From Papaver somniferum (lineage: Eukaryota; Streptophyta; Magnoliopsida; Ranunculales; Papaveraceae), in contig NC_039359.1 in NCBI RefSeq assembly GCF_003573695.1, forward strand, positions 153,442,210 to 153,506,209: 64,000 nt of DNA, read 5' to 3'. The notes below the pieces were generated by a model. That model saw only the letters and a program-made list of their open reading frames with translations. It did no database searches and was not told the origin of the DNA. Numbering within the stretch: the stretch's first letter is position 1; each line of letters begins with the position of its first letter. Position numbers and translations under genes: made by a program. This document shows, piece after piece, positions 1 through 12,042 of this stretch.

Positions 1-1087
1 ACCTTTAATGTACCGTAAAACTGTTTTAGCTGCAACTAGATGAACATAAGTAGGAGCATGCATATACTAACAGATTTGATTCACTTCAAAACAAATCTCA
101 GGCCTTTTCTATGTGAGATATTATAAAGAACCAACTATAAACTTGTATTTTGTTGGTTCCCCATCATTTGGCAAGAGCTTAAAAGAAACATGACATGGAG
201 TATTACATGACTTAATTCGCACCAAGTTTGTTTTAGACAAGAGATCTAAAGCATATTTAGTCTGAGATAAGAAATAAACCAATTTTGTTTTTTTAACTTC
301 CAACCCCAAGAAGTAATGTAAGTCACCTAAGTCTTTGATAGGAAATTGAGATGATAAATGAGCAATGATTTTGTTACAATGAGAAGGACAAGAACCAGTG
401 ATGATAATATCATCTACATAAACCAATATAATTGTAATATGATCACCCAACTTCTGAACAATTAGAGGGGAATCAGCTATAGAAGGTACAAAATCCAGAG
501 CAATTAGAGAGTCTGATAGCTTTTCATACCAAGCTCTAGGAGCTTGTTTAAGGCCATATAGAGATTTCTTGAGTTTAAAAACAAAGTCAGGATGATCTTT
601 GTCAACATATCCAGGTGGTTGAGTCATAAAAACTTCTTCTTTCAGGTCACCATGTAAGAAGGCATTACTGATGTCTCCAATCAAAATTAACATCCAAGGA
701 TAACACAACTCTTATGGTAACAGGTTTCACAACTGGAATGAATGTGTCATTATAATCAATGCCTTCTAAGTGACTAAATCCCTTAGCAACTAATCTAGAT
801 TTGTATCTTTCTATAATGCCATCAGGATTATATTTAATCTTGTAAACCCACTTACATCCAACAAGGTTCTGAGAAGGATCAGGGGATACCAAGTCCCATG
901 TGCCAGCATTTGTTAAAGCTAAACATTTATTTCCTGTAGATTTAACCCAGACTTTTAGTTTAGAGGCTTTAGAATAAGAACTTAGAGCTTTGATGGATAG
1001 AGAACTAAGATAAGTTGTTGGAAGAACATGTTTATTGTTAAACATGACTTTAGGTTTAAAAATACCACTCTTGCCTATGGTTTGCAA
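1..1087 (-). pseudogene. Copia reverse transcriptase (fragment running off the window)
   Basis: The conceptual product contains the copia RT hallmarks: GCKWVYKIKYNPDG and YKSRLVAKGF near the start, LKEEVFMTQPPGY, KSLYGLKQAPRAWY, and the catalytic YVDDIIITG block. The YVDD aspartates supply the metal-binding pair. Two overlapping open segments (665-1087 and 121-708) are in different frames, so there is a frameshift near 690. Downstream of 121 the homology continues to the window edge (a HAPTYVHLVAAKTVLRYIKG-like block typical of the connection before RNase H) with in-frame TAG codons. It is non-functional. Confidence 0.88.
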
Positions 1088-1215
1088 AGAGTGGAAGGAA
1101 GATACAAAAGTGGAAGATGTAGTAGGAGTGTAAGTAGTAGGTAATATAATTGACGTTGATAAAGAATGAGGTTCAGTATTAGAGGAAGGGGAGTCAATAG
1201 TAGTAGAGGGGAAGT

Positions 1216-1870
1216 TTAGTAAGTTAGGTAAAGAAGATAAATCAACTGATTGAGCTTTGAAAAAGGAATGGACTCTTCATGAAAGACACCATGTCTAGGG
1301 ACATATACCTTTCTAGATTTAATATCAAGGCATCTATATCCTTTATGACAAGAGTTGTACCCTAAGAAGACACATTGAGAGCTCCTAGGTTGAAGTTTAT
1401 TATCAGTATATGGCTTCAACCAAGGAAAGCACAGGCAACCAAAGTTTTTGAGAAAGCAATAATCAGGTTTCTTCTTAAAAGTTATTTTAAAAGGACTAGA
1501 GTTAGGACAAGATTTTGTAGTAAGTTTATTAATCATAATATTAGTTGTGGAAAAAGCATCAAACCAAAATTCAGGAAGTAGAGAGGATTGTATTAACAAA
1601 GTTCTAGTGATTTTCATAAGATGTATGTGTTTTGATTCAGCTACATCATTTTGCTCAGGTGTATGAGGACAAGTTATTTCATGAACAATGCCACACTTAG
1701 AAAGAATTTCTTTAAGAATTTTGTTCACAAATTCACCCCCACCATCTGTTCTAATAGTCTTAATTGTGGAATTGAACTGATTCTCAACATATGACTTGAA
1801 AGAATTGAAAACAGAGGTAAAATCAGGCTTAAGAAAAAGGTGATATACTCAATAAAATTTAGAATAATCA
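1216..1870 (-). pseudogene. Copia integrase core and C-terminal region
   Basis: The segment encodes the second half of a copia integrase: a TDGGGEF-like catalytic block just upstream of 1740, then HTPEQNDVAESKH (the conserved PQQNGVAERK motif carrying the catalytic Glu), and FGCLCFPWLKP with VFLGYNSCHKGYRCLD, the usual C-terminal copia signature. It lies between protease (upstream on the minus strand) and RT, as expected for copia. The upstream part is broken by stops around 1730-1870. Confidence 0.85.
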
Positions 1871-1909
1871 TCAATAATGTTCACATAATGTCTAAAATCA
1901 TCAACTGAA

Positions 1910-3180
1910 TTAACAGGGCCCCCAATCATCCATATGAAGTAAGAGTAAAGGTGCAGTAGAAATAGAAGTAGAAAGAGTAAAAGGTTGTTTATGACTTCTA
2001 CCTACTTGGAAGTCAATGCAAGAGAGAGGATTATTCAAATGATGAGTAGTTTTTAAAGATTCTTGTAAAAGATTGGAAAGAAGGATGAGCCAATCTCTTA
2101 TTACAAATGGCTGGTGAAGCTTTGACACATGAGAGAACTTTATATGATGAATGAAATCATACTGGATGATAAGAAAGACTGCACTGATCTTTATTTGGTG
2201 GATAAGAGAGACTTCATTGAAAAGGATAAAGACCATTCCTACTGGGCCCTTGAAAAAGAGTCTTCCATATAAAATTTTGGGCAGCAAGAGGAACACGGAA
2301 AATTTTATGTAAAACAAAGTCATGTGAAGGAACTGAAGCTAAAAAAGAGCCAGAATTTAAGACTTGCATACCTTCACCATTAGTTGCAGTAATAGAAGTA
2401 TCATTAGGAAATCCAGAAGTAGAGTCAATATTATTGGCATTGGATGTGAGGTGATGAGTTGCTCCAGAGTCCACATGTACCAGGGATTATGTCCTAGAAG
2501 ATTTGCAGAAGCAAGCATTGCTTGAAAATTTCTTGGAGGACCTCTTCCTTGATAAGATAAATTCATTATATTTCAGCACTCATTAGCTTCATGACCATAC
2601 TCTTACATATCTGGCAAGTTGGTTTGTCTCCATAATATATGTCAGGTGGTGGTGGAACATAAGCAGTGAAAGAGCCAATAAAAGTAGTTACTGGTGTGGG
2701 AAACAAGCCAGTAGAGCCTCTTCTATAATTTTTATTATTATTATGACAAAAACCTCTACCAGAGTAAGAGTTATTGTTGAAACCATTATTAAAACCTATA
2801 CCAAATTCTCTACCATACCTTTTGTTATAACCTCTGCCAGTACCTCTACCATTAGTGAAGAATGCATGATTTATTGATTCAACATGAGAATTAGTAGATG
2901 TACTATTTAAAACAATTCTCCATTAAGCATGAGATAATGCAATCCAGTGCTATTGACCGGTGGATGAAAAATCCGGATCGAAGTAGCAAAGGAATTATAA
3001 TCAGAATCAAGACCAAATATAAGGTGACAACTACAATCTCATTATCAGAAATACGACATCCAAAAGCATCTAATTTCTCATATATTTGTTTAATTTCACT
3101 ACCATAATGATAATAATTCATAACCTTTGGACCACTCAAATGGTATCTGCCTCGCTAAGATTGGTACCCGGCTTTAGCAA
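1910..3180 (-). pseudogene. Copia gag, zinc knuckle, protease and GAG-pre-integrase remnant
   Basis: Descending from 3180, a gag (UBN2-like) stretch with EIKQIYEKLDAFGCRISDNE is followed by an Asn/Gly-rich segment. A CQIC...GHEANEC zinc knuckle around 2580-2640 is readable only with a frameshift. Then comes the aspartic protease motif MDSGATHHLTSN at about 2440-2474, whose DSGA is the active site, and a GAG-pre-integrase segment at 1910-2323. Frames change at least three times, so no intact polyprotein is possible. Confidence 0.8.
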
Positions 3181-3231
3181 TCGTGGTGGTGAGGACATAA
3201 ATTTATTTTAACAATTCCAGGCTTAATAGGT

Positions 3232-3420
3232 TGTTAGGATATCACTCCAGAAATTGCTTTTTGACTTCTGGAAGCTGAAAAGTCAGAAATAAGTTTGGAT
3301 ATTCAATTTTAGAATGACTTTTAGAGGAAAAAAGTTAATTTTTTGTGAAGCAAGGACATTATGTTTTTGACTTCTAAAAAATAGAAAAACTTCTGCTTCT
3401 GGTATCCAAACATGCTACAA
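3232..3420. mobile_element. Short MITE-like repeat, copy 1
   Basis: A roughly 190 bp AT-rich block begins with GGATATCACTCCAGAAAT and ends with CTTCTGGTATCCAAAC, i.e. imperfect inverted ends of the type TTTGGATACCAGAAG. A second copy with the same ends and interior (GACTTCT, TTTTAGAA, TTTTTGTGAAGCAA) lies at 36472-36633. It is probably a non-autonomous hAT-like MITE; I could not fix a target-site duplication. Confidence 0.5.
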
Positions 3421-3458
3421 GTATAAGGGCTTCACAATATAATTAAATATGTGGACGC

Positions 3459-3466
3459 CTTTCAAT
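3459..3466. repeat. Target-site duplication of the MULE, left
   Basis: CTTTCAAT directly precedes the left inverted repeat and recurs perfectly at 11844-11851 directly after the right one. Confidence 0.85.
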
Positions 3467-3509
3467 CCTAGTTTAATTGGGGGCCATAACTTCCAATTGG
3501 GGGCCATGG
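3467..3509 (+). repeat. Left terminal inverted repeat of the MULE
   Basis: About 43 bp, starting CCTAGTTTAATTGGGGG and containing CCATAACTTCCAATTGG. It matches the complement of 11802-11843 with one single-base indel and about five mismatches. The sequence just inside both ends is also loosely similar. Confidence 0.85.
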
Positions 3510-3631
3510 AATTTTGTTTTCCCCCCAAAATTTTCAGGGGTGTAAATATCGCAATATGAGTATACTATTTTACCCTTCACTAATTGAAAATCAGTTTCAC
3601 TAATTAACTATTCTAATTAAGGCCCCTAATC

Positions 3632-3638
3632 TATATAC
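3632..3638 (+). promoter_or_regulatory. Possible TATA box of the PMD gene
   Basis: TATATAC lies about 185 bp upstream of the predicted PMD start, followed by a CT-rich stretch typical of plant 5' leaders. Weak, position-based call. Confidence 0.35.
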
Positions 3639-3817
3639 CCTAACTAAATCAAAGAGAAAATCAGTTTCTCTTTTATCTTCATCTTCCTCTCCTCCCTTTC
3701 TCTTCTCCACCTCCACCATTAACGACTCCACCTCCACCGAGGAAAATTCTTCGAACCGATTCATCGCTTAATAGTCGATGATAAAAATTTAATCGACGAT
3801 TAACTTCTTCTACAAAT

Positions 3818-3957
3818 ATGGCTAAAACAAAGCAAACCGCTCGCAAAGCACTTCAAATTCCTAATCTTGTAGATACGGTGAATGCAAAGGTGTACGTGCG
3901 AAGAGCTCCTGAAGCAAGCAAATCGAAACCCAAAAAGGGAATGGCTCCAATTAGAGG
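3818..3957 (+). other. Predicted exon 1: histone H3 N-tail mimic
   Basis: The ATG-initiated exon begins MAKTKQTARK. Alanine at position 2 predicts Met removal, leaving AKTKQTARK, against ARTKQTARK in H3, so the K4, T6, R8 and K9 equivalents are all kept. Similarity ends at residue 9: no STGGK follows, so it is not a captured H3 gene. The rest is basic, with KSKPKKG. It ends at a GTACGTG donor at 3958. Phase 2 is completed by the AG at 4600-4601, giving an uninterrupted join into the PMD exon 2 frame. Confidence 0.7.
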
Positions 3958-4044
3958 GTACGTGAACTTAAACCCACATCCTATTAGATGTTTTGGTTGT
4001 TTTTTGATTGTGTAATCGAGATTGGTAACTGAAAAATAGAAGTT

Positions 4045-4545
4045 ACAGAGTGAGAGTCGTTAGCATCGAAGAAATAATACCCTAACGACTCTTACATTGC
4101 ATGCTTTTTCTATGAAAAATCGTTAACCTGTTAGTGTAAGTATGATGACCCTTGTTCTGCTACTTCGACCTTTTGTGCCCTAGAATAGAGTCGTCGCCAT
4201 ATTAGGTTGAAGATGACGACTGTAGTTTGATGACCCCAAATTAGTGCGTAACGACTCTGGGTTGAAGTTGAAATGCCTTCTGTTGGAGAAAATGATAGAG
4301 TCGTCAGTAGTATATAATCCCTAGACTAGAGTCTTCAGTAATTTATAATCCCTAGAGTCGTCATCTCTTTTATAGGGTCGGCAGTTACTTGTTTGACGAC
4401 CCAAGTTTAATCTTTAACGACCCTTTAAGGACCAAAATCATCCTCACTGTCCAATTTTTGGAAAGAGTCGTTACCTTATAAATTACAGTCGTTACCTTGT
4501 AATGAAGAGTCGTTAGTTTGTTAGAGCATATCATTGACGACTCTT
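4045..4545. repeat. Motif array A (RAGTCGTYA), in PMD intron 1
   Basis: About 17 copies of AGAGTCGTTA, AGAGTCGTCA, TAACGACTCT, TGACGACCC and close variants lie within 500 bp, in both orientations, 15-60 bp apart. They are dispersed rather than head-to-tail. The array lies within the predicted first intron of the PMD gene (3958-4601). Confidence 0.8.
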
Positions 4546-7309
4546 TAACTGATAGAGATAAAGTTGATGTCTTATAAAAAAAATTCGTGTTTGGAATGTA
4601 GTGACAAGAAAACGAAAGACAAGGTTGAAATCACGATAACTCCTCCTTCGAAACCTCCCCGCAACAATAAATACTTACTTGCCGGTCTATTGCGCGGAAG
4701 AAGGCCAAGTGAGGTATCATTTTCTATCACCGAACCAAGAGACAAAGGTAATGAGTTGTCTGATTCGTCAGAATCAGACACTCCTGTTGTTTCAGCTAAC
4801 ACTAGTGCTGAAGAAGAAGATGAACAAGAAGAAGAGCAAGTAGAGGAGGAACATGGTATACAACATGAGATACAAGAAGAAGAGATTCAAGAAGAAGAAG
4901 AGGAACAAGAAGAAGAGCAAGAAGAGGAGGAAGAGGGTGAAGGTAATGGTAGTGGTGATGATGAGGATGATGGTAATGAGGAGGAACAACATAAAGGTAA
5001 TAATGGCGGTGATGATAATGATGATGAGGAGGAAGAGAATGAAGGTAATGATGATGAAAAGGATGAAGGTGGTGATGATGGTAAAACCACTGTTGAGTAT
5101 GAGGAAGAGAATGCAAAGGCGAAAAAGCCGGTAAAGAGGGTTAAGAAGGATGTAACAGATATTGCACCCAGTGCGAGACACGTTCCCGCTACTCATTTGA
5201 TGTTGCCTCCTCTTATAGGTGGTAAACTTAGAGGAGAACCTAGATATGGGGGCAAAGTTCTATTTGGATATCCTGGATCGTGGGCTCATTGCATTAGTGA
5301 GACAATCGTAAGAATCCCAAATTTGCTTGCTATTTGATTAGTTGGTGTTAACTTGTTTATGTTTTGTTTTTTAAATACATGTTTGTTTATGTTTTGTAGG
5401 ATCATAAGGATGTCGCACGTCTTTTCCGGCACCAATCTTCTTTCAAGAAAATGGAGTTGTGGCCGCTAGAAGGTGAATGTGCAAGAGTTAGAGATTTGGT
5501 TGAAAACTCAGGTTTGTACAATGACGTTGTGAACTCTGTGATTGCGTATGACAATGTCGCAGTATCTAGTTTTTGTGAAAGGTATCACGCTGAAGTCGAC
5601 ACATTCCAACTTCCTTTTGGTGAGATGGCGATAACTCCTGATGACGCAGAACATATATTAGGGCTGTAAGTCGAAGGAAAATCAACCGGTGAGAAGTTCA
5701 AGAGAAAGCCTAGTTGGGAAGACATCTATATATGGACCAAGAACTTGTTTGGCTGGGATTCCGAGAAGACTAATGGGCTTTTCGAGAAGGGACATAAGTA
5801 CCCGAAGAAAGAGTTCAAACTTTTAGATCTTAGGAACATGTTTTCTGGGACATAAAAGAAGGAAAAAGAAGGAGGTCTCTCTGATATGGAATGTCGCTAT
5901 GCGGAGGCTGGGTATTTGTTGTATGTCCTTGCGTCGGTTATATTTACTGACACCAAAGGTAACCGGGTGAGCGCCAACCTTCTTCAGCTTTTGGATCCCT
6001 TGGAAGATGTGATCAAGTACTCTTGGGGAACTGCCATAATTGCACACCTGAATGGTCAGCTTTCTCAGGGATCTCGCAAACTAACTTCTCAAATTAATGG
6101 GAATTTGGCTCTAATCCAGGTATTTGGATTGATGAACGTTTTCTTATTTTTGTACATTTTAAAAATTGAATTATTTATGTTTATTTCATTGGTTGCTATA
6201 GGTGTGGATTTATGATCATTTCCCATCACTGATCAAAGATAATGAATATGTAGAACTCAAGCCAAAATGGAGCAAAGGTAGTCCAACGGGAACCAAATAC
6301 TTGTTCACTAGTTCTCAAGATAGGGAACAAACTGATGCGTTGATACAAATGCGTCAAAAACTTGACAAAATCACGGCTAAAGAGGTAGTCTTCAATCCGT
6401 ACAAGAATAATAGAGTTGGTGCAATGGAAGATGTCGTGTATTACCATGGCCCTTTGTTTCACCCTAACGGTTTTTCAATGTAAAATCCGATAAGAATCAT
6501 GCGTTAACTTGGTTTTATTCAAGATTCACCCGATGAAGATTATGTACCTCCGTTCAAGCACAAGTTGGAAAAGTGTGAGGCTGGCGAAGCGGGTATAAAG
6601 GTGGCTTATGAACCTGAAGTTGATGTCAAGCATTGGAATGATAGACACTATAGTCTTGTAGACATCTCATGGTGGGTGCATGTGGATGAAGGTCATGAGG
6701 CAACACCGGATTACGTCGAATGATATGAAGGCTTCTCCCATGGTAGGGTGATATGGGTAGATCCGACTCCGGGTAGGAGGACCAACAGAGCATCCACCTC
6801 TTCTTCTTCTCAAGTCGACCGTAGAGATGCTATTTCCATTTTGACACTAGTGGTGAGTATTTAATTTTGTAATTGTGTTATTCATCTACATATAAGAGAG
6901 TTAATGTGAAATTGTTTTTAAATGCATATAGAGGGAGCGAATGAAGCTTCTTTTCAAGGCTTTTTGTTGCTCGGCTGACAAAGGGGAAGTGATGGATCCT
7001 GCGAAGCAACGTCGGTACGCTGATTACTGCACGCACATTGAAAATCCCAATGCAAGGAAGATGTTCAAGGAGCTGGCTAAGGAAGGTAAGAGGAGCCGGA
7101 AATCCCGTAGACAAAGAGCACAAGAAGTTGCTGAGCATGGCCAAAGTAGCCAACATCATGATGAACATCCCTCAGAGGTACAAGAAATTACTAGAGGAGA
7201 TGTTGGTTCCCCAGAGGGTGCTCCTCCTAAGAAAAGTCGAAGATTAGCAGGTCAGGGAGGCAGTAAGGTGGTGGTCGAGGTCGAGATGGTCGACTTCAAC
7301 TTATGTTAA

Positions 7310-7870
7310 TTTTACTCTATGAATTGAACTTAAGTGTGTGTTGAAAAAACTTATGTGTTTGGTTTGGAGTCTTCGTTTCGAGTACTTTTATGTTTGGTAA
7401 CTCCTGTGTTTGTTGAAAATACTATGTTTTCAAGTATGCTCGTTAGAACCATGTAGTACTCCAATGGACACAACATTTCCCTTCCTCATACCAAGGGTCG
7501 CCATCTTCGTTTCATACTACTTTGACGACCCTAATTTTATTTACCACTTCAACACACAGAGTTGTTAATATCCTCAAATAGAGATCTAACGACCATTTTT
7601 CCCAAAACATCTAGGAGATGGGAAGAATATTTCTGGATAGAGTCGTCAATGTTTATAATGAAATCAATGACGACCCTTGGTTAACAAAATATATCCAGGA
7701 GGTCTGAATTTATTTGGCTAGAGTCGTTAGCTTTTTCATGTCAATGACAACTGTTTGTTGGATTTAGGAGTCATTACTCTGCTATGGATACCTGTGACGA
7801 CTCTCATTTTGAAACTAAAAAGGATTTTGATTTCATTAGGAAAATAACATTACATCTATCTCGTATTACA
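7310..7870. repeat. Motif array B, between the convergent gene ends
   Basis: After the PMD stop, the roughly 180 bp to 7490 show nothing notable. From about 7490 to 7805 there are about nine copies or near-copies of the GTCGT motif (AGGGTCG, TTGACGACCCT, AGAGTCGTCA, ATGACGACCC, AGAGTCGTTA, GTGACGACTCT). This is the shared 3' region of the PMD and transposase genes. Confidence 0.75.
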
Positions 7871-9874
7871 TAAGAGTTAATATGGGTATTCTTGAAGTTG
7901 ATGCATCAAATGTTCGTCAATGTTGTATATTCTTTATGGTGAATGGAACTTAGTTTCCCCATTACGTATTGTCCATAACCCATCGAAACGTTCCAGCTGA
8001 AATTAAACGAGGAATGTTATAAATTTGAAGCATGACAGAAGTATAAATATTAACGGAATACTCACTTTTTCCTTAAGCCACGTCTCAGTTGTACAATTAC
8101 AGTTCATCACTTTTCCACTTGAAGCTTTCGCTCGAAATCTGTGAAGTTCAGCCATCATATGCTTTATTGCCCACCATGACACTTAGTGTGAAACCCCGCG
8201 TAGCAATTGTTTGTCTTCCAGGTATTGCTTAAAAAACGGTCCTTACTATACACTCCATCTGAGTCACTATCTTGCTAAGATCATCCTGGGCGTTCTCATG
8301 AATAGCTTCATGTACAGTAACTACCCCACCAGTGTTTTCTCGAAGAATTTTCTTCAAACGTCCATGGGACTACTCTGTGATACTAGTGGACTCATTTTTT
8401 TAGTGTTTGTACTTATTGGTCCATGCATAAACAAACTTCTCCTTCCAAGGATTCAACCAGGTATCTTGGCAATAGTCGACCACCTTCTTATAATCCGTAC
8501 TCCAAACATCGATGAACTTTTGGCAAATTTGCATAGTACTTTACTTCGGTCTTCGAATGGGTCAAAAGGTCCCAATCTTTTCATAAATCCTCCTATACAT
8601 CCCCCTCTTCATCAAATTTTTCCTTGGCTTTCTTTTTCTCTTCCGTTATCTCTTTTTTTGAAAGTTTACTAAGACGCTCATATTCTTCCTTGGAATGTTG
8701 ATTACCCTTTGCAGGTTTGATCTTTTGGATTTGATTCTTGCAATTATTAAAAAGATTCTTTTGGATGTGCCCCGTACAAATAAAATGTTGAGCAAGGGGA
8801 AAAAATTGACGAACGACACTCATGACTGCAAAATCCCTATCCTTAAATATAACCTGCGGTGTCTCTTTGCCACGGTAAATCAACCCAACTTGTTCCAAAG
8901 CCCAAACATAGTCTTCTATTTCTTCCTTTTCCATAAAGCACCATGCCACGGTGAATGATTGCTTATCCGAAGTATGACTATCCACGTTCAACAACGGCAT
9001 GTTATACTTGTTGGTTTTATAGGTGCAGTCTATGAACAAGACCTGGTAAAAGCACTGTGCCAAATGCATCATCCTGGGATGGACAAGAAAAATATGAGTC
9101 ACTTTGTCGCCCGGATCGACCCTTGTTTGCATGGCATAATTATGTTTTTCTGCCAACCACTCTGATTGTTGCATAATTAATCTACCATCCCATTCAGTTC
9201 TCTTGATCGTTGCTTTGGCAGCGTAGATTGTGGAAAGAATAGACAAGTTTGACTTATCTTCCGCCTTTATTGCATTTAGAATCTTAAGGGGCCTACATCA
9301 CTTCATCTTCCGAACCTTTTCCATTTGATGTGGTTTCAATCGGGCATATGCTGGGTGCCCTAAAAGAGTACTAGGTGGAGGATGGTTGTGACGACCATCC
9401 GGAATACTATACATCCACCATAGTAGAGTTTTGAGATGCCTTTTGAAAACAATCCTGAAGGGGCATTTTATTTTCTTCGACGAAGTTTTGTAGACCCTCG
9501 TCGTCTTCTTCACATACTTGTAGTTCTTCCCTTTGTGACTTTCTTCCTTATCCCCCGCTCTCTCGCATACCATCTCCATTTGCTTACAATCAACGTGTTT
9601 GCTTTGAACAATTACGCACATATTCTCTTTTCCCTTGGAAATAATCCATTCCTTGACCTCAGTCTTTGTTTTCCACGTCTACATTAAACAAATAACATGT
9701 TCATTATAAAATACTAATTAAACAATTTTCATATGGATATACATTGACTCAAACAATAAAAACGTACCAAATCGGTCATATATGCTTGGGAGGTATCCGG
9801 GCCGATAGTGTCGAGGGGTTCAGGTTGAGAGCTCACTCGTACAACCAACTAAAGAAAAAGAACAAAAAAATCAG

Positions 9875-10140
9875 TATAGGGTCGTCACTCTTTAAGATGT
9901 TAATATGACGACCCAGACAGTCGTCAGCAAAATTTACAAGTGAACGACTCTTTAAGTCGTCACCCAGATTTCCTGTAGACAAACGACCCTTTTGTCGACG
10001 TATGACGACTCTTCTTTATAAAGTGACGACTCTACATTGATAGATATAACCAACTCTGCCCAGTTTTCACCTTGAATCGTCACCTTGTATACATATAAAA
10101 TAACGACTCTAAGAGTCGTTCTATGATACATATGAAGATT
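9875..10140. repeat. Motif array C, in transposase intron 1
   Basis: About twelve copies in 265 bp (GGGTCGTCA, ATGACGACCC, CAGTCGTCA, GAACGACTCT, AAGTCGTCACC, ATGACGACTCT, GTGACGACTCT), including the near-perfect inverted pair AACGACTCTAAGAGTCGTT at about 10103-10121. The array ends just before the promoter of the trihelix-like gene. Confidence 0.8.
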
Positions 10141-10245
10141 CGTTTGGTTTTAATCTTTACGGATTAACGATTCATGTTAGTGGGTGCATTTGTTTTTGAA
10201 TTTAACTCAACCAAATGTGGTTGAGGCAGTTTGGTCGCTCCATTC

Positions 10246-10253
10246 TATATAAA
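10246..10253 (+). promoter_or_regulatory. TATA box of the trihelix-like gene
   Basis: TATATAAA lies about 100 bp before the ATG at 10356. It is followed by AAAACCCTAATT and a CT-rich leader, as in plant core promoters. Confidence 0.55.
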
Positions 10254-10355
10254 GAGGTCCATATCTCACCTATTCCATATCAAAACCCTAATTATCAACC
10301 TCCTCTTCTCCTTCTCATTTAATTACCATTTAAGAGCAAAAAAAAGAGAAACAAC

Positions 10356-10819
10356 ATGATTTCATTCACTAATGAAGAGAATTTTGCCATTACAAGAGCT
10401 TGGAAAACAGTCACTAACCGCTTTGAAAGTCTAGACAAAGACATTGATGAAACATTAGATGCTTGGTGGTACCGTGTATTCATCGTTTTTGTGGCGTTGG
10501 ACGAAAATTGCAACTCAAGGTCTTTGAAACAAGTCAAGGAACGCTTCCAGAAGATACAATTCGAGTGTGATGTTTTGAAAAGAGAACTTAAGGCTGTTAG
10601 GGAAGCCTTTCCGGATATGTTGAGTGTTGTAAGAGTAAGTATTTGAACAAGAGGTAAAACTTATAAAAAGCTTTGATCGATACTAATTAAGTATATTTGC
10701 ATTTTCAGTTGGGGAAGGCGTATCGCTATTATGAGGAGCTTCGTGGGGAAAAGTTTGAGCTCCACGATTGCTACTTTATCTTGGAAGGCACTAGATATAA
10801 CTACGCCATATATGATTAA
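10356..10819 (+). CDS. Small trihelix/SANT-like DNA-binding protein of the MULE
   Basis: Two exons, 10356-10634 and 10709-10819, joined in phase 0 by a GTAAGT donor and a TTTTCAG acceptor, give an uninterrupted 129-residue protein. It begins ISFTNEENFAITRAW with a second Trp pair in LDAWWYRVF, then RSLKQVKERFQKIQ. Exon 2 adds LGKAYRYYEELRGEKFELHDCY. This is the layout of the plant NAM-associated/trihelix-like Myb domain found in proteins encoded by DNA transposons. It lies antisense inside predicted intron 1 of the transposase, flanked by motif arrays C and D. Unlike its neighbours it has no stop. It could recognise the array motif, which is an inference. The family call rests on pattern only. 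Confidence 0.72.
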
Positions 10820-10944
10820 GTGTATAAGTGCACCTTTATTTTCTATTGTATTTCATTTCCTTCAATGCAACGCTATGCGAGATGTATGCCTTTTACGATT
10901 CAATGAAATGATTCTATGAAATCAAAAATTATGAGAATCTAGTG

Positions 10945-11295
10945 CAAGGGTCGTTACTTTATATAACTAATCAAACTAACCACTCTAAAAGAAATTAGTA
11001 ATTGATAGCTAGGATCGTCATTTCATATGACTACATGTATGACGACCCTAAGTGTTACTTTTTACAGAGAGTTTTGGTTTTAGAGTCGTCTATGTGTAAA
11101 CAAAAAAACAAAACGACTCTAAGTGACCTAGTGTTAAAGGGTCGTCAATGTTTAGCACACTACCCTAACGATTTTTCATAACCTGGAAAAGTTGCAGGTT
11201 TGAGTCGTTATTGGTAGTGTCAATATACTGACGACCTCAGAGAGTCGTTTGGGTATACACCCCCCGACTATGACGACCCTTTCTCTGAGTTGTTA
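10945..11295. repeat. Motif array D, in transposase intron 1
   Basis: About thirteen copies or near-copies in 350 bp (GGGTCGTTA, GGATCGTCA, ATGACGACCCT, AGAGTCGTC, AAACGACTCT, GGGTCGTCAA, GAGTCGTTA, TGACGACCTC, GAGTCGTTT), alternating in orientation. It lies between the trihelix-like gene and transposase exon 1. Confidence 0.8.
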
Positions 11296-11801
11296 CATAG
11301 TGTGGATGATTCGACCACTTGGAGCACCATTCAGACAATTTGAAGAGTATAGGAAGTTTACCTGATTGTTTTGGCCTTGGGGTTTCTCATTTTGAGTGTT
11401 GGTTCCTTCATCTTGAGCAATGGGATCTTCATTCCAACCATTATTCATGCCTTCCTCTATCAACATCTCCTCATCAAACATCCAACCCATATCATTAGTT
11501 GAGACAATCTTACCATCAACACAATCATTGTTGTTATTTGAAGCTTCACCAATCTCATTCCCTCCACTTGAATCACCCATTTGTAAAAACCCTAGGTTTT
11601 CCTCTCAAAACTCCTCCTCTTCTTCTCAACACATAAAACACATTTTCCATAATATTCTCCTAAAATCAGATTTTAATCTAAATACACTTACCACACTAAT
11701 CAAACTAATTACTAATCATATAAGGACAGTTTTGCCATTTAGAAAATATTTTTTTAAGGGGTGACCCAAATTAGGATTGGGTGACATTTTTGTCCCGTAA
11801 T

Positions 11802-11843
11802 GCATGGCTTCCAATTAGAAGTTATGGCCTCAATTAAACTAGG
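11802..11843 (-). repeat. Right terminal inverted repeat of the MULE
   Basis: The complement reads CCTAGTTTAATTGAGGCC and continues CATAACTTCTAATTGG, matching the left repeat. It is followed at 11844-11851 by the target-site copy CTTTCAAT. Confidence 0.85.
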
Positions 11844-12042
11844 CTTTCAATAATTTAATGCCCAAATTTAGCCGTAGGGGGGCTTTAGGTTAAGAATATG
11901 CAAGTGTAGGCCGTGCGGGCCTCAACTAATCCGTGCGGGCCACACAGGCACACACTATTTACACCCACACCGACACGCAAATCACCAAAGTATCAATCCG
12001 CGTACATAATCCGCACTTTTCTTCTCTCGAAAATAGGAAAAA

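Follow-up and report, generated by a model that had tools for sequence, protein, structure and literature searches.

The closest described system is that of the VANC proteins of Arabidopsis VANDAL elements, which are encoded by the element itself, act on short non-coding motifs and oppose the methylation that RNA-directed DNA methylation directs there (PMC5735166, PMC10398659). In these two papers, the motif of VANC21 is YAGTATTAY, those of VANC6 are AGTTGTCC and AGTTGTAC, and the VANC targets contain tandem repeats that vary among copies. According to a third paper (PMC5418596), the plant mobile domain (PMD) is fused, as PMD-C, to the transposase of Mutator-like elements (MULEs) in grasses and Amborella, and Ikeda et al. 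speculated that PMDs captured by MULEs serve anti-silencing; PMC12312487 was also consulted. Here, a 64-kb window of the opium poppy genome (Papaver somniferum, NC_039359.1), the whole stretch of DNA that was analysed, contained an 8.4-kb MULE copy (3467..11843, no strand assigned) with arrays of a short CpG-centred motif in its non-coding intervals and a PMD gene with a histone H3-like N-terminus. The arrays are read, with a probability of about one half, as VANC-like cis targets of an element-encoded, probably anti-silencing protein, which perhaps presents a decoy of the H3 tail.

The GTCGT core occurred 43 times on the two strands of the element and 35 times in the remaining 55.6 kb, and 500 dinucleotide shuffles of the element gave a mean of 8.5 and a maximum of 18. 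The longer form RGTCGTYA was found 33 times in the element and 0 times in the rest of the window; in 500 dinucleotide shuffles it averaged 0.69 occurrences and never exceeded 5. The array announced in a preliminary description of this DNA was therefore real, and its density withstood the comparison with shuffled sequence. The exact form RAGTCGTYA, of which 45–55 copies had been claimed, occurred 17 times in the element, and a count of that size was reachable only when degenerate sites were admitted. With a weight matrix, 58 sites of at least 9 bits lay inside the element and 15 outside it in the window, or 52 and 8 at 10 bits; the matrix was trained on the element's own sites, which makes the inside count circular but not the outside count.

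Four non-coding blocks held 53 of the 58 sites of at least 9 bits: 17 in intron 1 of the PMD gene (site centres 4058..4539), 11 between the convergent gene ends (7499..7915), and 13 and 12, respectively, in a distal (9883..10169) and a proximal (10952..11275) array of transposase intron 1, no array being assigned to a strand. Both the placement of the four clusters and the depletion of sites in exons agreed with what had been described before. The remaining five sites comprised a single one at 3724 and four that fell within blocks labelled coding. The terminal regions of the element were almost free of sites, with the one at 3724 and none between 11275 and 11843. This internal placement tells against sites that serve transposition or its control through binding of the transposase or an accessory protein, an unlikely explanation with which the repetition of a short motif in both orientations, its paired geometry and the small extra proteins encoded by the element would be consistent. 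A host transcription or chromatin factor could instead bind the sites as intronic enhancers of the element genes. First introns and intergenic DNA, where the arrays lie, are generally known enhancer locations in plants, but the exact RGTCGTYA is absent from all 55.6 kb of flanking DNA and no host factor was identified, no search aimed at one having been made, and this role is considered unlikely.

In the window arrays, 47 of the 70 CpGs were located inside sites. Several weak sites deviated from the consensus by a change of CG to CA or TG, which would fit decay after methylation.

The spacing of the sites, previously given as an irregular 15–60 bp, followed a strict rule in facing pairs. In the window, 36 of 48 neighbouring sites no more than 60 bp apart alternated in orientation (p = 3.6e-4). 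Centre-to-centre distances in the 20 adjacent facing pairs were 19, 24, 24 and 26 bp and, in the other sixteen, 27–29 bp. Seventeen of the 20 thus lay at 26–30 bp; when orientations were permuted within clusters, the mean was 5.1 and 17 was reached in 0 of 20,000 permutations. The related loci described below gave 91 adjacent facing pairs within 60 bp, with 84 at 26–30 bp, five at 24 bp and two at 48 bp, counts that are not independent because the 12 loci are kin. The same distance was seen in 14 PMD introns (33 of 36 facing pairs at 25–29 bp) and in 57 of 61 nonredundant pairs at 26–30 bp (spacers less than 70% alike; drawn from pairs at 24–30 bp). Across the 2.7-Gb opium poppy genome, exact facing cores numbered 5,540 with a spacer of 17–21 bp and 308 when the spacer was lengthened by 10 bp (27–31 bp), and the reversed patterns numbered 343 and 81, respectively. 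No clear 10.5-bp signal of helical periodicity was obtained over all pairs.

Tandem units were also present, an 81-bp unit with one facing pair being repeated two to five times per copy, partial units counted, in the eight copies where it was found. These units would suit an explanation of the arrays as a by-product, in which tandem duplication and the capture of a short H3 fragment produced the observed features without a selected function. The spacers of facing pairs were mutually unrelated, with a median best identity of 0.44 (random, 0.39), and therefore most pairs are not tandem copies; since the pair spacing also holds genome-wide, the by-product explanation is considered quite improbable.

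The possibility that the pairs form hairpins, either in RNA or in single-stranded DNA, was weighed against the variation of their arms. Facing arms can pair by construction, and the mean energy z was −2.5 in 40 pairs. In the 61 nonredundant pairs, Fisher tests of covariation at both variable positions gave p values of 0.30 and 0.43, and two of 55 arm deviations were compensated. When all 132 distinct pairs were included, the tests gave p values of 0.053 and 0.055 in opposite directions. Selection for hairpins is disfavoured by this independent variation of the arms, and the hairpin explanation is very improbable. Given this lack of covariation, a pair of protein sites set a fixed distance apart is the best reading of the unit.

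For comparison across the genome, 20 copies of the window element were fetched together with 12 related loci, which were taken from 150 scored of 7,387 transposase candidates and were 67–91% alike to the transposase query P0008. The 12 loci consisted of four members of the window family (about 94–96% identical in DNA sequence along most of their length), seven diverged loci (75–85%) and L030. Motif and geometry were kept in 11 of the 12, with 18–30 sites each at 9 bits, and in a matrix-free check the top heptamer contained GTCGT in each of these 11 loci. L030 had three sites and was without the array; it also had no nested gene and no first exon of the transposase. The expectation that related MULEs carry the arrays was thus borne out, whereas the expected co-divergence of motif and protein was not found, one motif being common to the seven diverged loci besides the window family and to loci 67–90% alike to P0008 in the transposase piece. 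Ordinary repeats or clusters located away from the arrays accounted for the other k-mers enriched in L038–L040.

The non-site sequence of the distal array was only 0.53–0.67 identical (shuffled control, 0.44) in six of the diverged loci, L032 being left out of the seven, yet this array contained 8–19 sites. The sites were more alike than their surroundings in all six distal and five of six proximal blocks (11 of 12 comparisons), with the exception of the proximal array of L036, in which they were less conserved (0.83) than the rest (0.86). By these comparisons, the motif persists even as the array sequence around it is replaced. In L039, at ~2350–2760, a degenerate tandem array with units near 41 bp was observed past the first transposase exon, at the point where alignment with the window copy is lost.

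The PMD gene (3818..7309, + strand) sits between the terminal repeats of the MULE and was defined by one frame over GT–AG introns, by PF10536 and by poppy gene models, with exons at 3818–3957, 4602–5307, 5400–6119, 6202–6852 and 6932–7309. PF10536, the plant mobile domain family, was matched by this gene and by 15 of 15 poppy PMD homologues. The encoded protein is composed of an acidic region, the PMD and a basic end, in this order. Its matches to solved structures were confined to the acidic stretch, and DUF287, which VANC proteins also carry, was not reported.

The PMD protein of the window starts with MAKTKQTARKALQIPN, and its H3-like N-terminus, MAKTKQTARK (3818..3847, + strand), was recognised from its sequence, a genome pattern search and 14 fetched relatives. 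Where relatives read MARTKQTARK, the residues after Met are exactly residues 1–9 of histone H3, and the sequence that follows is unlike H3. The pattern MA-x-TKQTARK had 193 exact matches in the genome, true H3 genes among them, and 0 when reversed. Sixteen matches were fetched, selected for differing codons and nearness to transposase matches. Fourteen were PMD exon 1 (L041–L052, L054 and L055), reading MARTKQTARK in ten, MAKTKQTARK in two, MAHTKQTARK in one and MASTKQTARK in one, so that H3 residues 1–9 were identical after Met in 10 of 14 of these pattern-picked transposon loci, a poppy H3 gene (L056) serving as the reference. The likeness is placed where enzymes and readers act on H3. Each of the 14 contained 8–18 sites in its 1.0–1.3-kb stretch. 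The other two matches, neither with a site, were a real H3 gene and an unexplained H3-like start in L053, where MAKTKQTARK is followed by TTSTGSNHG without arrays. The codon of Arg8 was AGA in 11 of the 14 fetched PMD loci and CGC in the window family. Of the 15 annotated poppy PMD proteins, 11 were examined, and four of them start with MAKTK[QH][TI]ARK and one with MARTKRTKR; four poppy gene models include the H3-like exon.

The H3-like start is perhaps the most surprising feature of the element. For the by-product explanation it could be a captured fragment, and the decay of the H3-like residues in dead copies would agree with this, as would the way in which samples with an intact tail were picked by that tail; a sample so chosen cannot measure tail conservation. 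The likeness to H3 ends after residue 9–10, however, while families differ in the codons for it. The tail is ancestral to several families, and constraint on it is plausible.

Several results weigh against the reading of the arrays as targets of an H3-tailed protein. Of the 12 window-family copies displayed, seven retain the H3-like tail and five do not, and the tail is not specially conserved among these dead copies. When 10 diverged PMD loci were picked by their identity in exon 3, the first exon was located in four, all with tail-derived but changed sequences (MARTKQIARK, MAKKKTARK, MARTKKNARK and MACTKQTARK), and was absent from the 800 bp fetched in the other six. These loci had 0–7 sites per 800-bp stretch, and L062 had only two sites in ~475 bp of intron. 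DUF1985, the domain that characterises VANC proteins, matched one PMD exon piece at 18.1 bits, below the cut-off of 35.1, and the weak matches in 10 of the 15 PMD homologues (best E 0.001) were likewise never above the cut-off. Structure prediction of the PMD protein from 15 sequences had a mean predicted local distance difference test score (pLDDT) of 34 and was unusable. A single-sequence model of a 96-residue exon, with a mean pLDDT of 74 and a predicted template modelling score of 0.47, contained two implausibly long helices.

The reading of the arrays as protein targets nevertheless draws together the site density, the fixed facing geometry, the genome-wide numbers of 5,540 and 308, the persistence in 11 of 12 loci, the conservation of sites and the tandem units. 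It further draws on the share of CpGs inside sites (47 of 70), the occurrence of the H3-like tail with arrays in 14 PMD loci, the precedent of VANC and the proposal of Ikeda et al. The VANDAL-like target array of the preliminary description is therefore retained for its dense non-coding array, tandem expansion and element-encoded candidate binders, and left unsupported with respect to co-divergence, irregular spacing and the trihelix label.

The recognised unit would be two WARRGTCGTYA sites that face each other at ~27–28 bp, centre to centre, and are occupied either by a dimer or by a pair of proteins in a fixed geometry. Such units, which are spread over the non-coding intervals and owe part of their number to tandem duplication, would be bound by a sequence-specific protein that the element makes and that marks its own introns and intergenic DNA. 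Binding would most likely counter silencing there, as VANC does on VANDAL targets, and occupancy of the sites would cover the main targets of CG methylation, because two of three array CpGs are inside sites. The favoured and likeliest effector is the PMD protein, which without its initiator Met would begin A-R/K-T-K-Q-T-A-R-K. Tethered to the arrays, it would display many H3-like tails that could occupy or divert the enzymes or readers of H3K4 and H3K9. Such anti-silencing by histone mimicry, with decoy tails tethered to CpG-centred paired sites that number in the thousands across the genome, is proposed only tentatively. The nested 129-codon protein may be an alternative binder or a DNA-binding partner.

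The nested gene is located in transposase intron 1 (10356..10819, + strand; 129 codons) with exons at 10356–10634 and 10709–10819. Forty places, scored from 436 candidates, comprised the window's own gene and 39 others at 96–98%. When ten loci including the window were compared, with the omission of L039 (frameshifted) and L032 (exon 1 not found), the gene had no frameshifts, stops in three loci and no ATG at the aligned start in four (L033, L034, L036 and L038). Its ratio of nonsynonymous to synonymous substitution rates (dN/dS) was 0.47–0.66 between the window and six diverged loci, and therefore suggests a real protein. The trihelix label given earlier to this 129-residue protein was rejected, as it had no meaningful Pfam match and no homologue among eight candidates, and its best E value in a profile search of solved structures was 0.057. 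In the same intron, L029 (~909–1079) and L031 (~852–1148) each contain an additional, diverged version of this gene (35–47% identity).

The MULE transposase gene (8093..11580, approximate limits, − strand) was assigned by PF10551 (E=6.2e-22), with a weak FAR1-like Pfam match, and by exon matches in relatives. Exon 1 lies within 11293–11580, exon 2 near 9770–9850, and the main exon runs from ~9680 down, its 3′ part being deleted here. The window copy is internally deleted in comparison with longer genomic copies, and five of the 20 copies (L009, L013, L018, L022 and L023) contain ~2.4 kb extra at element position ~4610 (window ~8075). In L009 (2900–5318), this segment was read as two more arrays, a 161-codon open reading frame and the transposase 3′ part. 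A GDGNC motif seen by eye in the transposase portion in L009 prompted an OTU label, which Pfam did not confirm.

The limits of the whole MULE copy were set by its inverted terminal stretches, its ends, the target duplication and longer copies elsewhere. The 8-bp duplication CTTTCAAT flanks the copy at 3459–3466 and 11844–11851. The left terminal inverted repeat (3467..3508, + strand) is complementary to the right one (11803..11843, − strand) over a 36-nt arm at 81% and a 19-nt arm at 89%. The copy is dead, with five internal stops in the PMD frame. The observed/expected ratio of CpG was 0.12, a strong depletion, in the left flank (window 1–3466) and 0.66 in the right flank. An open reading frame starting MADKASRSL at window 12043, without a match in a Pfam search, lies ~200 bp past the right end, and therefore the insertion may sit upstream of a host gene.

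To our knowledge, it is not understood how VANC-type proteins undo silencing. For the idea of Ikeda et al., the poppy element offers a candidate target, and its H3-like tail a candidate mode of action. If the reading is true, poppy would contain a second VANC-type system that gives hints about the substrate of the effector, and chromatin editing could gain a sequence-specific tool. The paired operator and the H3-like tail give a directly testable chain from site to binder to H3 enzyme.

The poppy element shares with the VANDAL/VANC systems of Arabidopsis a MULE transposase, a short non-coding motif, tandem repeats that vary among copies and extra element-encoded proteins, and its motif is related in sequence (AGTTGTCC for VANC6, AGTCGTCA for poppy). 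The motif is unlike the published VANC motifs, as had been stated before, yet AGTTGTC of VANC6 is one transition from AGTCGTC. The poppy element differs in its PMD protein, which takes the place of an accepted DUF1985 protein, in one motif common to diverged families, and in the CpG-centred motif, strict facing-pair geometry and H3-like N-terminus. Because DUF1985 is sub-threshold and the motif is common to families without co-divergence, the element is not classed on these grounds as a member of VANDAL/VANC. In the En/Spm (CACTA) system, TnpA binds subterminal motif repeats. The likeness lies in an element-encoded DNA-binding protein, which is predicted for poppy, and many short sites in both orientations, whereas the poppy sites are internal and the element belongs to another superfamily. 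Histone mimics are known, for example those of G9a or viral proteins, and share with the PMD protein a short H3-like sequence in a non-histone protein; unlike in these, the poppy residues 1–9 are at the protein's own N-terminus and are encoded by a plant transposon. The titles and abstract openings in a literature search described no H3 mimic in a plant transposon. The MULE-encoded PMD of PMC5418596 is likewise carried by a MULE and was proposed there for anti-silencing, whereas in poppy the PMD has a separate, convergent gene of its own, which is accompanied by arrays and has an H3-like exon.

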